Source: Acidipila sp. EB88 (GTDB lineage: Bacteria > Acidobacteriota > Terriglobia > Terriglobales > Acidobacteriaceae). Taken from it: a stretch of 64,000 nt of DNA. Below the pieces are notes generated by a model. It made no database searches. It saw nothing but the letters and a program-made list of their open reading frames with translations, and had not been told where the DNA came from. Position 1 is the first letter of the stretch, and every line of letters begins with the position of its first letter. The translations under genes and the position numbers were made by a program. Location of the stretch: assembly GCF_003858395.1 (NCBI RefSeq), contig NZ_QWEV01000005.1, positions 868,001-932,000 of the forward strand, given 5' to 3'. This document shows positions 27,831 through 61,592 of the stretch, piece after piece.

Positions 27831-28437
27831 TTAAGCTCGTGCATAGTCCATCGCGTCGAGATCGTTAATCAGTCCCAGACTCGTCGAAGCCCAGTTCAGC
27901 TTCTGCTGCGTGGTAACGCTTGACGCCAAGAGGTCCAATCCCACAAACATCGCCAGCCAACCGAAGTGGGCCTCGACCTCATCTGACGCGATACGTTCCG
28001 CAGATACCTTCAAACCACGAATTAGGGTTTCGGCGATTTGGGTAATCCACGGCGCGCATGGACTTTCCTCGGTGACCGGCGTCCCGTCAGTTCTCATTGC
28101 GACGGCAGCGGCGAGGTGATAATGAACGGACGTGGAGATCCTGCCAGAAGCTCCCCGATGACTTCCACCGGTTTCCGGTCGTCCTCACTAGACTTTGGAA
28201 TCCTGAAAAATCATGGTTAAACGCGAGGTGGATCACACCGGCTGAATGAGTGACTCCCTTTCGCAGAGTGTCTGGTTCCTGCACGTCGCCGATATGAATT
28301 TCTGCACCAGATGCGAGAAGTGCAGCAGCGCTCTCAGCCGAGCGAGTCAGACCCGGCACTGTATGTCCCACTCCGCCTAACTCAGGTAGAAAAGCCGAAT
28401 CAATGAAGCTCGTTGCCCCGGTCACAAAGATGCGCAC
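27831..28437 (-). pseudogene. Atypical SDR/NAD-dependent epimerase with internal deletion
   Basis: The 5' part begins GTG CGC at 28437 after AAGGAG and reads VRIFVTGATSFIDSAFLPEL, then AGVIHLAFNHDFSGFQ. The 3' part reads TQIAETLIRGLKVSAERIAS, then EVEAHFGWLAMFVGLDLLAS and LNWASTSLGLINDLD, the usual end of the YbjS-like group. About half of the roughly 290 codons between are missing and the frame changes. The second glycine of GATGFIG is D or S here. Confidence 0.8.
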
Positions 28438-28503
28438 AGTCGTTTCTCCTTGCGGCTTATCCAAGCCGTCCATCATCTGATGGAAGTGAAGCAAAGACGA
28501 TCT

Positions 28504-29589
28504 ATGCCGAAAGTATCTAATAATGATCCAATCGTCCGAAAGTTTGGTTCGAGTGGACGGAGAACCGCAAATCGCGACACGTGGCCTGACTCACCTATCG
28601 GAATGCAAGCTGATTTGCTTTCGGAAGTTCTAGCCCTCGTGAAGCCGCAGAGCTATTCTTCCGGCGGTTTTCCTCTGCCTGCGGACATGGCGATTCAGTT
28701 TCCCAAGCACAAGGGAGTGAAGTGTTATGCGGTTCTTGCCGGTCAGTGCTGGCTGCTTGTCGATGGCGTAGCAGAACCAGTGCTTTTCAAGGCTGGTGAT
28801 TGCGTATTGCTTCCGCACGGTCTGCCGCTAAGGCTGACGTGTGATCTTTCTCTCGAGCCGGTTCATTTCACCATTGCCTGGGCTCGGATCGGACAAGCCC
28901 AGCAGAGTATTCAGGCCTGCGATGGCTCTACGCTCATCGCCGGCGGCCATTTTGCGTTGACCGGTCTTCATGCAGAAATGCTGCTTCGCTCTCTACCGCC
29001 TATTGTTCACATCAGGAGAGACCCAGACAAGTTCTCCTTACGCTGGTCGCTTGAACTCATGAAGGAGGAGCTTCGTGAACCGCAGCCCGGGGGCGTCGTG
29101 ATTATGCAGCAGCTCGCCTACATGATCCTGGTGCGGGCTCTGCGGCTGCACCTAACCAATTCGAATAGCGGCACTCCCGGGTGGCTTACGGCTTTATCGG
29201 ACAAGCATATGCGCACCGCAATCTCCAACATGCATCGCGCTCCGGGTTACGCGTGGACCTTGAAGTCGATCGCGGAAAGTGTCGGTCTGTCGCGATCAGT
29301 ATTTGCTTTGCGCTTTCGCCAGATTGTAGGTAGCACTCCCATGGATTACCTCACCCAATGGCGTATGGCACTTGCCGCGGAACGCTTGAAGAACTCAACG
29401 GATGGCGTCGGCATCATCGCGCAGTCGCTTGGCTACGAGTCTGTTGCTGCTTTCGGTAAGGCATTTCAACGCGTCATGGGTTGCTCCCCGCGGAAATACG
29501 GCCGAACTCCACGTCAGACTGGAACCACGAGTGGCGGAATGAATGAGAGCTCGGAGGTTGCGATGGTGGATGTGGTGGCGGGTTCTTAG
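28504..29589 (+). CDS. AraC-family regulator (cupin_6 type)
   Basis: About 361 residues from this ATG; in-frame ATGs at 28450 and 28480 are alternatives and none has a strong ribosome-binding site. The N-terminal sensor: ADLLSEVLALVKPQSYSSGG, then KCYAVLAGQCWLLVDGVAEP and GDCVLLPHGLPLRLT. A linker helix follows (LELMKEELREPQPGGVVIMQ). The HTH: WTLKSIAESVGLSRSVFALR, then FRQIVGSTPMDYLTQWRMAL and IIAQSLGYESVAAFGKAFQR. Divergent from the deleted SDR/epimerase gene, which was probably its target, as is common for this group. Confidence 0.88.
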   Translation: MPKVSNNDPIVRKFGSSGRRTANRDTWPDSPIGMQADLLSEVLALVKPQSYSSGGFPLPADMAIQFPKHKGVKCYAVLAGQCWLLVDGVAEPVLFKAGDCVLLPHGLPLRLTCDLSLEPVHFTIAWARIGQAQQSIQACDGSTLIAGGHFALTGLHAEMLLRSLPPIVHIRRDPDKFSLRWSLELMKEELREPQPGGVVIMQQLAYMILVRALRLHLTNSNSGTPGWLTALSDKHMRTAISNMHRAPGYAWTLKSIAESVGLSRSVFALRFRQIVGSTPMDYLTQWRMALAAERLKNSTDGVGIIAQSLGYESVAAFGKAFQRVMGCSPRKYGRTPRQTGTTSGGMNESSEVAMVDVVAGS

Positions 29590-53817: not shown

Positions 53818-55734
53818 TTACGCGGGGGAAGGACTGCCTTCGGGGAAGCCACCGCCATGCTTCGGTTCCGGCTTCAGAACCTGCTGCACGTTTCCAGTTG
53901 GCGTGCCGCCTGAGGGTCCACCGGTCTGATCGAGCGGCGGCAGTTCCTGCCCGTCGATGATCATCCGGATCTCGGCACCGTCCAGCGTTTCGCGCTCCAA
54001 CAGGGCCGTGGCCATCCGGTGCATCGCATCCTGTTTAGTGTCGAGGATGTGGTATGCCGACTGGTACGCAGTATCCACCTTGGAGCGAACCTCGGCATCA
54101 ATCTGGCGGGCAGTCTCTTCCGAGAAGTCGCGATGCTGTGCAATCTCGCGACCAAGGAAGATCTGTTCTTCCTTCTTGCCGTAGGTCAGGGGTCCCAGAT
54201 TGCTCATGCCGTACTCGCAGACCATCTTGCGGGCAAGTTCCGTGGCCCGTTCGATGTCGTTGCCGGCACCAGTCGTCATCTGCTTCAGGAAGATCTCTTC
54301 GGCAATGCGTCCGCCCATGAGAATGGCCAGCTGCGTATCGAGATAGTCCTTGGTGACAGTGTGGCGATCATCCACCGGCAGCTGCATCGTGACACCGAGT
54401 GCCATGCCGCGAGGGATGATCGTGACCTTGTGCAGCGGATCAGCATGGTCACGGGTTGCAGCGACCAGGGCATGGCCGGCTTCGTGGTAAGCGGTAACCC
54501 GCTTCTCCTCGTCGCTCAGCAGCATGCTTTTGCGCTCCGCGCCCATCATGACCTTGTCCTTGGCTGCTTCGAAGTCGATCATGAGCACTGCCTTGCGGTT
54601 TGCGCGAGCAGCGTTCAGGGCGGCTTCATTCACCATGTTGGCCAGGTCAGCACCGGAGAAACCGGGTGTGCCACGCGCCATAACGCGAAGATCCACATCA
54701 TCCGCGGTGGGAACCTTGCGTGAGTGCACCGCGAGAACTTCTTCACGGCCACGCACGTCGGGACGGCCCACAATGACGCGACGATCGAAGCGGCCCGGGC
54801 GAAGCAGCGCGGGATCGAGCACGTCGGGACGGTTGGTGGCAGCGACCAGGATCACGCCATCGTTGGACTCGAAACCGTCCATCTCGACCAGCAACTGGTT
54901 CAGGGTCTGCTCACGCTCGTCGTGTCCACCGCCAAGGCCTGCGCCACGGTGACGACCCACAGCATCGATCTCATCGATGAAGATGATGCAGGGGGCGTTC
55001 TTTTTACCCTGCTCAAACAGATCGCGGACGCGGCTCGCACCGACACCGACAAACATCTCCACGAAGTCCGAACCGGAAATCGAGAAGAACGGCACATTGG
55101 CTTCGCCGGCAACGGCGCGGGCCAACAGGGTCTTGCCTGTTCCGGGAGGTCCGACGAGCAGGACGCCCTTGGGGATACGTCCACCGAGCTTCTGGAACTT
55201 CTGCGCTTCCCGCAGGAACTCGATAATCTCCTTGAGCTCTTCCTTGGCTTCGTCCACGCCGGCGACATCCTTGAACGTCACCTTCTTCTGCTGCATGGAG
55301 AGCAGGCGTGCTTTGCTCTTGCCGAAGGAAAGCGCCTTGTTGCCGCCGCTCTGCATCTGGCGCAGCATAAAGAACCACAGGGCGCCAATGATGATGATCG
55401 GGGACAGGTTCAGCAGAATCGGCAGCCAGGAGCTGCCACGGTTATCGCGAACCGTTACGGAAACATGGTTTTCCTGCAGAATGTCATAGAGATGGGGGTA
55501 GTTTGCCGGGACCGTGACGTGGTACGGCGTGCCGCTCTTCAGCTTGCCGTGCACCTCGCTGTCGGTGACCGTTGCTTCCTGCACCTGGCCGCCCTGGGCG
55601 TCCTGCAGGAAAGTCGAGAAGGACATGTCCTGCTCGTGACCCGCGCCTCCACCCTTCTGGAACACCTGCCAGAGGAGGATCAAGCAGGCAAAGATGAACA
55701 CCCAGAAGATAATTGTTTTAACAGTCGAATTCAC
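53818..55734 (-). CDS. ftsH: ATP-dependent zinc metalloprotease FtsH
   Basis: Inner-membrane AAA+ protease, 638 residues from the chosen start. Membrane helix 1 near residues 5-25 and helix 2 near 103-125 flank a periplasmic domain. Walker A GPPGTGKT, Walker [12 protein letters not shown], second region of homology [20 protein letters not shown], and zinc motif HEAGHAL are intact; the pore loop is MFVGVGASR. The start is the GTG at 55734 ([11 protein letters not shown]), six bases from GAGG; a GTG two codons upstream lies too close to that site. The C-terminal tail is Pro/Gly-rich. Divergent from tilS. Confidence 0.97.
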
Positions 55735-55740
55735 AGACAC

Positions 55741-56079
55741 CCTCGCTTCTCTTCGAACGCACGCCTAAGGCGGATGCACCCACCTATATAGACGCGGTAG
55801 TGCCACTAACGAAGCAAACCTTGCTGCGTGATGCATCGATATGCTCAAAGAAGGCAGTCCCAGAGTATGGGAAGAGCTCCCGGCAACGTATCAGTGATTG
55901 TACGACGGGCAGGGCTGCTTAAGCCGGGAACTCAGGCCGATAAGTCCAGAATCCCGTATTACTCACAGGGTGCCGAGCGGGAATGCACGATGAGCACTGG
56001 TGTTGCGGCTCACCCGCTGCATCGCCTGCCTTGTCCGGTCGACGAATGCAATCTCCTTGCGGCATGCTGAGGGTGTGCG
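55741..56079. other. ftsH/tilS divergent promoter region
   Basis: Holds the upstream regions of ftsH (minus) and tilS (plus). No gene, RNA or strong dyad was recognised. A GAGGG at 56069-56073 could serve tilS. Confidence 0.4.
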
Positions 56080-57576
56080 ATCCGCCTCCGTATCAACGCT
56101 GTTCTCCGTCGAGCAGCTCCCCCGGGAACCCGGCTTGGGCTGGCTGTTTCAGGCGGAAGCGACTCCATGGCGCTGCTCCACCTGGCAGCCGGGCTCGCGA
56201 AGAAGCAGGGCTGGCTCCCGCAGGTGGTGCACGTACACCACGGACTGCGCGGGGCGGCAGCGGACGAGGATGCGGCGCTGGTGGAGCAACAGGCGCGGAG
56301 CCTGAGATTGCCCTGCCGCGTGCTTCGCGTGGATCTGGCAAGGCGTGCCCGGGTACTCAGGGTGGGCCTGGAGCAAGCAGGCCGGCTGTGCCGGTACGAC
56401 TGGTTCCGCCGCCTGATGGAGCTGGGAGAGCTGGATGCGATCGCTACCGGCCACACCATGGACGATCAGGCGGAGACCGTGCTGCTGAAGCTGCTGCGTG
56501 GAAGCTGGACTGCGGGCCTCGCGGGCATCTACCCCGTGCTGCCTGCGGCCGACCTGCCCAGACTCGATGAGCCCCAACTCGGGGCGCCTGAACTGTCGCG
56601 TTCGGTTGCAGCGGCGAGCGGGGGTTCCGCGATTTTGCCGCCTGCGCACGTGCCACAGCGAAGCCGTCCACCAGGGGTGCTCGTTCGACCGCTGCTTGGC
56701 GCACGGCGCAGCGCACTCCAGGAGTGGCTCCGCGCAGAGGGGCTGCCCTGGCGCGACGATGCCAGCAACGACGAACTGGTGTTCACACGCAACCGTATTC
56801 GCCACCAGCTTCTCCCATCCCTGATGGAGTACAACCCGAACATGACCGAACAGCTCGCCCAGACAAGCGCGCTTGCCCGCGATGAAGAAACCTATTGGCA
56901 GGCGGAGGTGGACCGGGTTCTGCCGGGCCTGCTGCTCCCGGGCCGCCCCGTACGCGGCGGCGGCCGATCCAGTTCCACCCTGCCGGGCGAGCAGTCGCTG
57001 GCGATCGAGGTAGAGCGGCTGCGCGTGCTCGCTCCAGCACTGGTGCGCCGACTGGTCCGCGCGGCGGCAGCAAGGCTCGGCGGCTCGCTCGACTTCGCCG
57101 AAACAGAGAGGGTGCTTGCCCTGCTGCAGGGCGCTGTCGGCAGCGTGCCCCGGCGGGAGCAGCTCGGCGCCAGCCTCCGGGCAGAACGCAGCCCTAGAGA
57201 GTTGCGCTTTGTGCGTGCGGAGCCCAAGGCGTTGGGCACTGTTGAGGATGTGCTGGTGAGTGTTCCAGGAGACGTGCAGGCGCTTGGCATCCAATTAAAG
57301 GTCGAGCTGGCGGCAGGCACCGCGGTCGCCGCGACAGGCGCATTGCCCCAGGCCACGCTGCGCGGCACACGGCCCGCAGACCGGGTCACACAGCGCTACT
57401 CAAGGGGCACGCCGCGCAGGATCAAGGAAGTGCTTGAGCGGATGGGCGTACCCTCCGAGGCACGTGCCGGATGGCCCGTACTTGTATGGCAGGGCGAAAT
57501 CGTCTGGGTGCGCGGCGCGGTGCTTGAACCCACGCCGCTCTCGACCCAGTTGCACGTCACCTGGCAGGAGGGTTAG
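56080..57576 (+). CDS. tilS: tRNA(Ile)-lysidine synthetase, start codon unclear
   Basis: TilS converts C34 of tRNA-Ile(CAU) to lysidine. The PP-loop ATPase signature LAVSGGSDSMALLHL begins at 56140, followed by VVHVHHGLRG, ATGHTMDDQAETVLLKLLRG and the DDASNDELVFTRNRIRHQLL segment. The C-terminal domain ends near 57576 (RIKEVLERMGVPSEARAGWP). The first in-frame ATG (56167) lies after the PP-loop and cannot be the true start. The frame is open back to 56071 and reads IRLRINAVLRRAAPPGTRLG, as expected for the family, but it has no ATG, GTG or TTG. The start given here is ATC at 56080, nine bases after GAGGG; a CTG at 56140 or an undetected frameshift are alternatives. Confidence 0.85.
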   Translation: MRLRINAVLRRAAPPGTRLGLAVSGGSDSMALLHLAAGLAKKQGWLPQVVHVHHGLRGAAADEDAALVEQQARSLRLPCRVLRVDLARRARVLRVGLEQAGRLCRYDWFRRLMELGELDAIATGHTMDDQAETVLLKLLRGSWTAGLAGIYPVLPAADLPRLDEPQLGAPELSRSVAAASGGSAILPPAHVPQRSRPPGVLVRPLLGARRSALQEWLRAEGLPWRDDASNDELVFTRNRIRHQLLPSLMEYNPNMTEQLAQTSALARDEETYWQAEVDRVLPGLLLPGRPVRGGGRSSSTLPGEQSLAIEVERLRVLAPALVRRLVRAAAARLGGSLDFAETERVLALLQGAVGSVPRREQLGASLRAERSPRELRFVRAEPKALGTVEDVLVSVPGDVQALGIQLKVELAAGTAVAATGALPQATLRGTRPADRVTQRYSRGTPRRIKEVLERMGVPSEARAGWPVLVWQGEIVWVRGAVLEPTPLSTQLHVTWQEG

Positions 57577-59789: not shown

Positions 59790-61592
59790 GTGCCGATTGG
59801 CCGCACACCAGATTCCATTCTGAAAGCGAGCGTCGCTGTGCCCCCTGTCCTGCCTCCAGTCCGCAGGCTTCGTGATCACTTCGCCCCTGTCTGCGTCGCA
59901 GTTGCGGCGCCGAACCCTGCCCTTCTTTTCGAACAGGCAGCCACCGCCGTGCAGGAGAGCTCCTTCGAAGCTCCGCTGATCGAGCTGCGCATGGACGCGC
60001 TGGACGAGCCGGAAGCGGGTGTTCTCGCCTTCGCCGCGTTTCGCTGCGCCCATCCCGGGGCCGCGCTCCTGGTCACCTGTCGCCGGACGGATGGCGGAGG
60101 GGCGTATACGGGCACCCCGCAGGAGCAGTTGACGCTGCTGGCCCGCTTCGCGGTGGCCGGCGCATCGGTGATCGACCTGGAGCTCGAGACCCTTGAAGTC
60201 GTCGCGCCAAGCGCACTGGAGCAGTGGGCCGACATCCTCGAGAGAAGCGGCACGCTGGTGCTGGTGAGCGCCCATGACTTTGAGCGTACGGGCGACCTGG
60301 ACAGAACGCTGCGACGGCTGCGCACCCTGGGCAAGCCCTGCAGGGCCGCGGTTTACAAGGTGGTGTCCACGGCAGAACGGCTGGCTGACAATCTCGCGAT
60401 GCTTGAGTGGATCGAGCGTGCCTCCCGTGAAGTCCCCGTAGTGGGAATTTGCATGGGGGAGGCCGGTTTGCCCAGCCGGGTCCTGGCACTCAGCGCGGGG
60501 GCGCTCTTCACCTTTGCCGCCACATCGGCCGGAGCGGGCACGGCTCCCGGCCAGGTCACCGCGGAGAAGCTGCTTCGCCAGTACCGGGCCGACCTGCTGC
60601 GCCGCGCGAAACATTACGGCGTCGTGCGCGATGTGGATGCGCCGGAGGGCGCTGCCCGCGCGTTCCAGGCGGAGAATCCTGCGATTGAGGAGACCCGTCT
60701 TTACGGAGTGGCCGGTAACCCGGTCAGCCATTCCCTATCCCCGGCAATGCACAATGCGGCCTTCCAGGCGGCGGGTGTGGACGCGGTGTACCTGCCACTG
60801 CATACCACCTCGGTCGACGATCTCCTTGCGTTTGCAAAGGCGCTGCCGCTGTCGGGGCTGAGCGTCACCATGCCGTGGAAGGTCGATATTCTGCCGTTCC
60901 TGGCCGAGGTGGATCCTCTTGCGCGCTCGATCGGTGCGGTCAACACGGTGGTCCGCCGCGAGGATGGATCGCTGCTCGGCATGAACACCGATGCCGCGGC
61001 GGTTGTGGAGCCTTTGCGCCAATACTTCGACCGCAGGGCCGGAGACGCGGGAGGAGCGAACAGCCTTGATGGGTTGCGCGTGCTGCTGCTGGGTGCCGGG
61101 GGCGCGGCGCGGGCCGCGGCGTTCGGGCTCAGGGCAGAGGGCGCGCTTGTGTCGATCCTGAACCGGACTCTAACTTCTGCAGAACACCTGGCGCAGGAGA
61201 GCGGGACGCGCGTCCATGTGCCCGACGAAGCACAGCCCTACGATGCCGTGATCAACGCGACGCCGGCCGGGATGCTGGGTCAGCCGCAGGCGCTGCCCCT
61301 TGTGGACGCAGCGCTGCTGCGCGGGGTGCGCGTTGTGTTTGAGATGGTGTACCGGCCCACGGAGACTCCGTTGACGCTGCTGGCGCATTCACTTGGCATC
61401 GACGTGATTTACGGGCTGGAGATGTTTGTGCACCAGGGCATGCGGCAGTGGGAGCTTTGGACGGCGCAACCCGCACCAATGCCTGCGATGCGGGCGGCGC
61501 TGGAACAGGCGTTGCAGGAACAGGAAGCGGCGGCAGGGGATACTGGATCAGGATCTGTGCAGCCCGGCGCGGCACCAGCGAAACCGCAGTAG
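59790..61592 (+). CDS. aroDE: Fused 3-dehydroquinate dehydratase (type I) / shikimate 5-dehydrogenase
   Basis: Bifunctional shikimate-pathway enzyme of 600 residues. Residues ~30-270: type I dehydroquinase with IELRMDALDEPE, catalytic H162 in VLVSAHDFERT and Schiff-base K190 in AAVYKVVSTAE. Residues ~303-580: shikimate dehydrogenase with LYGVAGNPVSHSLSPAMHNA, K364 in LSVTMPWKVDI, D401 in GMNTDAAAV (the usual final Gly of NTDxxG is Ala), NADP-site LLLGAGGAARAAAFGL, and INATPAGMLG. The order matches plant and chlamydial AroDE. The start is GTG at 59790 with a poor ribosome-binding site; a GTG at 59838 also fits. The C-terminal 30 residues are a Gln/Gly/Ala tail. Confidence 0.93.
   Translation: MPIGRTPDSILKASVAVPPVLPPVRRLRDHFAPVCVAVAAPNPALLFEQAATAVQESSFEAPLIELRMDALDEPEAGVLAFAAFRCAHPGAALLVTCRRTDGGGAYTGTPQEQLTLLARFAVAGASVIDLELETLEVVAPSALEQWADILERSGTLVLVSAHDFERTGDLDRTLRRLRTLGKPCRAAVYKVVSTAERLADNLAMLEWIERASREVPVVGICMGEAGLPSRVLALSAGALFTFAATSAGAGTAPGQVTAEKLLRQYRADLLRRAKHYGVVRDVDAPEGAARAFQAENPAIEETRLYGVAGNPVSHSLSPAMHNAAFQAAGVDAVYLPLHTTSVDDLLAFAKALPLSGLSVTMPWKVDILPFLAEVDPLARSIGAVNTVVRREDGSLLGMNTDAAAVVEPLRQYFDRRAGDAGGANSLDGLRVLLLGAGGAARAAAFGLRAEGALVSILNRTLTSAEHLAQESGTRVHVPDEAQPYDAVINATPAGMLGQPQALPLVDAALLRGVRVVFEMVYRPTETPLTLLAHSLGIDVIYGLEMFVHQGMRQWELWTAQPAPMPAMRAALEQALQEQEAAAGDTGSGSVQPGAAPAKPQ

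Follow-up and report, generated by a model that had tools for sequence, protein, structure and literature searches.

The reading frame of tilS

The tilS locus in the window (the whole 64,000-nucleotide stretch analysed here) raises the question of how a gene is translated when its frame holds no canonical start codon ahead of its catalytic motif. The SGGSDS motif starts at position 56149 in frame 1, as read directly from the sequence. This frame opens at 56071, immediately after a TGA at 56068–56070, and ends with the TAG at 57574–57576. A check of in-frame codons from 56071 to the ATG at 56167 finds no ATG, GTG or TTG, and the frame-1 triplets ahead of the motif that come into question are ATC at 56080 and CTG at 56140. 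All of this agrees with an earlier note on the locus, which also warned that automatic annotation from ATG 56167 would yield a TilS lacking its ATP motif; starting there lowers the TIGR02432 score from 156.8 to 131.9 bits.

The gene is tilS, encoding tRNA(Ile)-lysidine synthetase. The product carries the SGGSDS PP-loop motif and scores 156.8 bits against TIGR02432 (cut-off 93.6), with an E-value of 7.6e-46 for Pfam ATP_bind_3 (PF01171) and 27.3 bits (cut-off 22) for the C-terminal substrate domain TilS_C (PF11734). Motif, above-cut-off scores and C-terminal domain are all shared with the TilS family, and the sole departure is an assembled 5′ end that is out of frame. A search of the 4.48-Mb genome turned up no other copy of tilS. 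The neighbour upstream is a divergent ORF (53818–55740, minus strand) named ftsH from its sequence, and tilS must accordingly be transcribed from a promoter of its own between the two genes. Downstream, a 600-residue ORF at 59790–61592 (plus strand), likewise named from its sequence, resembles 3-dehydroquinate dehydratase fused to shikimate dehydrogenase (AroD–AroE).

Start codons of tilS in related genomes

TilS is present in 59 of the 61 genomes searched, and we examined the 5′ ends of the gene in relatives at loci L002–L031 and L231–L238. In the family relatives the tilS frame is unbroken and begins with ATG, GTG or TTG 22–36 codons 5′ of SGG, most often 25 or 28. Leaderless bacterial genes of the TA-led type carry a TAnnnT element about 12 bp 5′ of the start codon, and Acidobacteria are among the groups listed as having them (PMC3160421). 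By the same criterion, 26 of the 32 family relatives carry a TAnnnT box 6–8 nt 5′ of the in-frame tilS start codon. When starts from the other two frames were taken as a control there was a single match, and among start triplets of these loci in general the box has a background frequency of 1.5%. The tilS mRNA is therefore probably leaderless in most of this family, whose nearest named relatives in our searches are Acidobacteria. Some of the ATG triplets that are liable to be annotated as tilS starts fall inside or beside the −10 box (for example, in L015).

The 5′ end of tilS in the window

The closest comparison is with a genus-mate (L002), whose N-terminal reading of TilS is FFSRAALPPGTRLGLAVSGGSDS. 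Its tilS starts in the context TATGCT-N6-GTG, which is matched at the same place and spacing in the window by CATGCT-N6-GTG, with the GTG at 56075. The box at 56063–56068 (plus strand) probably serves as the −10 element for a leaderless tilS mRNA. It is a weak one that departs from the TA-led pattern by beginning with C, the first T of TAnnnT being absent, and a consensus scan at this box gives no full sigma-70 promoter.

The GTG lies in frame 2 and is followed by 15 codons in that frame (MRSASVSTLFSVEQLP). Together these form the probable true 5′ end of tilS (56075–56122, plus strand), as suggested by the start spacing, the box and the profile scores described below. The remainder of the gene (56122–57576, plus strand), which includes the PP-loop and C-terminal domains, is in frame 1. 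Between the two parts is a run of five C residues at 56119–56123, after which frame 1 continues as PGTRLGLAVSGGSDS. Read through this shift, GTG 56075 lies 25 codons 5′ of SGG. The genus-mate has 84 nt from GTG to SGG, the window 74 nt; these differ by 1 modulo 3, and the assembled tilS is thus one base short, wherever the exact site may be. The frame change is probably at the C run (CTGCCTCCGGGAACACG versus CTCCCCCGGGAACCCGG in the comparison with the genus-mate), a placement based on protein alignment and on CTGCCTCCGGGAAC versus CTCCCCCGGGAAC. A MAFFT alignment of the DNA instead places an odd gap, 4 nt long, some 15 bases 5′ of the run, and is ambiguous at the 5′ end because a single genus-mate was compared and the TilS proteins are about 60% identical. 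Codon usage over 56078–56121 favours neither reading, the 13 codons (1.87 nats for frame 1 versus 1.50 for frame 2) being too few to separate the frames.

Candidate starts were compared using a profile built from the TilS N-termini of 32 relatives. Frames 2 and 1 read in succession score 59.1 bits, whereas the part that follows the run scores 54.5 bits by itself and a protein beginning at ATC 56080 scores 54.9 bits. Frame 2 thus adds 4.6 bits and the ATC start 0.4 bits. The residues before PPGTRLG in frame 1, which the earlier note took for a genuine TilS N-terminus, contribute almost nothing TilS-like to the profile score, and those of frame 2 a little. A start at CTG 56140 scores 40.8 bits, below the part after the run, and was rejected. 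Frame 0, entered at ATG 56064 or GTG 56073, was also rejected, its peptide being unlike TilS.

The earlier note had proposed the ATC at 56080–56082 (plus strand) as a rare start; in that reading, GAGGG would be its Shine-Dalgarno sequence. The frame is indeed open from 56071, and an ATC start would lie 23 codons 5′ of SGG, inside the family range. The end of GAGGG (56069–56073) is six bases from the ATC, not nine as had been stated. A parallel exists in infC, a housekeeping gene whose rare AUU start is conserved and regulatory. The tilS genes of the relatives have ordinary starts, however: in every one that was read, an ATG, GTG or TTG precedes SGG in frame, and no close relative offers a counterpart to ATC. 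The literature was searched for a tilS gene starting with AUC, and nothing relevant came up. The leaderless pattern of the family means that a GAGGG before the ATC is not expected to matter, and the 0.4-bit gain adds little in its favour. Use of ATC would also leave unexplained the other one-base-short genes described below, the broken pyrG among them. We consider it very unlikely that TilS initiates at this codon, which is probably not used.

Probable one-base losses elsewhere in the assembly

A homology scan compared 844 kb of the same genome with the ORFs of a single-contig genome from the family, the reverse comparison serving as a control. The aligned coding sequence, 195 kb in all, contained three clean shifts, each one base short, and no one-base shift appeared in the reverse control. 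Among the three is pyrG, the genome's only gene for CTP synthase (L214:9530–11202; G000 contig 5, 809536–811136). It is split in two frames at TCCCC (GGTCCCCTC), with profile positions 3–256 in one and 249–526 in the other, so that the whole family is covered and one base is missing. An amidohydrolase gene (Amidohydro_3; L121, about 6262) is one base short at GTCCCCCAG, the profile matching from 2 to 145 and then from 150 to 472. A KaiC-type ATPase gene (L119, about 5062) is one base short at TTTCCCCGG according to its family match, and a gene for a flavodoxin-fold protein or reductase (Flavodoxin_2; L217, about 11320, minus strand) at ACACCCCGAG according to both family match and homology scan. 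The same picture is seen in a PDZ-domain gene at TGACCCCCAAC (L118, about 14249), and an uncharacterised gene (L118, about 15485) is one base short at a C4/C5 run.

The split sites of these genes are C4 or C5 runs. Several were chosen from candidates raised by a codon-usage HMM and afterwards confirmed by family matches. Frameshift-like switches in the HMM are equally common here (8 in 844 kb) and in a control genome (17 in 1580 kb), and their count was set aside as not above control; direction and homology were used instead. All eight switches here are one base short, as compared with a mixed 11 to 6 in the control. Runs of six C or G occur at about 0.10 of the number of runs of five, versus 0.14 in genome G018, a scarcity that is suggestive of homopolymer loss and is confounded by composition. 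On the sense strand every run at the split sites consists of C and not one of G. Random assembly errors would not be expected to show such a bias, although the sample is small. Elsewhere in the window, an epimerase-like fragment at 28202 (27834–28590, minus strand) matches the first 73 positions of PF01370 and has a one-base shift at TTTTT together with further decay. This fragment may be a real pseudogene and was left out of the tally of assembly errors.

Origin of the frame change

The arrangement at the C run could also reflect a programmed −1 frameshift on the sequence C CCC CGG in a message translated from GTG 56075. On CCCCC, the proline codon in the P site could pair anew once the frame has moved by −1, and the geometry is common to several genes of the genome. 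Against this, 1418 C4 and 237 C5 sense-strand runs sit in uninterrupted long ORFs of the genome, which indicates that C runs do not generally shift the frame. Folding of the RNA 3′ of the run does not exceed that of shuffled sequences (z = −0.54), and the tilS frame is unbroken in relatives. Frameshifting here is less probable again than an ATC start. The assembled sequence, if correct, would indicate that the sampled population truly lacks the base and that its TilS is either defective or produced through accidental slippage; this is the least probable explanation, since the only tilS and the only pyrG are hit alike and cells carrying both lesions are not expected to live.

TilS and PyrG are normally essential, and it is not credible that both are truly broken. 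We conclude, with a probability of about 0.88, that the missing tilS start is artefactual and that one base was dropped from the assembly by a homopolymer deletion error. The gene itself would be ordinary, with GTG 56075 as its start codon, and its mRNA would probably be leaderless and begin at this codon, as in the rest of the family. One base would have been lost from the assembled C run at 56119–56123, so that the start codon would fall in frame 2, and the remainder of tilS in frame 1. With the two parts so divided, no start is visible in the frame of the PP-loop. The sequencing reads would then be expected to disagree with the consensus. The tilS lesion is likely to be one of a set of such errors in this assembly.

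The earlier note had left the choice between a rare start codon and an assembly indel. The starts in relatives and the profile scores speak against the former, and the relatives and the lesions elsewhere in the genome speak for the latter. That note had also named, as grounds for abandoning its idea, an indel joining the SGGSDS frame to the GTG at 56075; the same relatives and lesions point to just such an indel. The slim remaining chance, larger than that of any single alternative above, is that the assembly is right and that TilS, CTP synthase and the others are made by way of a rare AUC start or of efficient −1 slippage on certain short runs of C.

The genome is estimated to be 88% complete despite containing a 4.25-Mb contig, a combination that fits homopolymer deletions in a long-read consensus. 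Homopolymer indel errors are known to break gene calls in nanopore-type long-read assemblies of bacteria and metagenomes (PMC9262707). One-base deletions at runs, broken gene calls, a highly contiguous assembly and reduced apparent completeness are all shared with those cases; the runs here are short by comparison (C4–C5).

For this genome, an essential gene that appears truncated or devoid of a start is likely to be a consensus error and should be treated with caution. Of more lasting use is a by-product of the analysis, the probable leaderless tilS across the family, where TAnnnT stands ahead of the start in most relatives as it does in the TA-led genes. If tilS is leaderless, annotated starts that lie within the −10 box deserve distrust.
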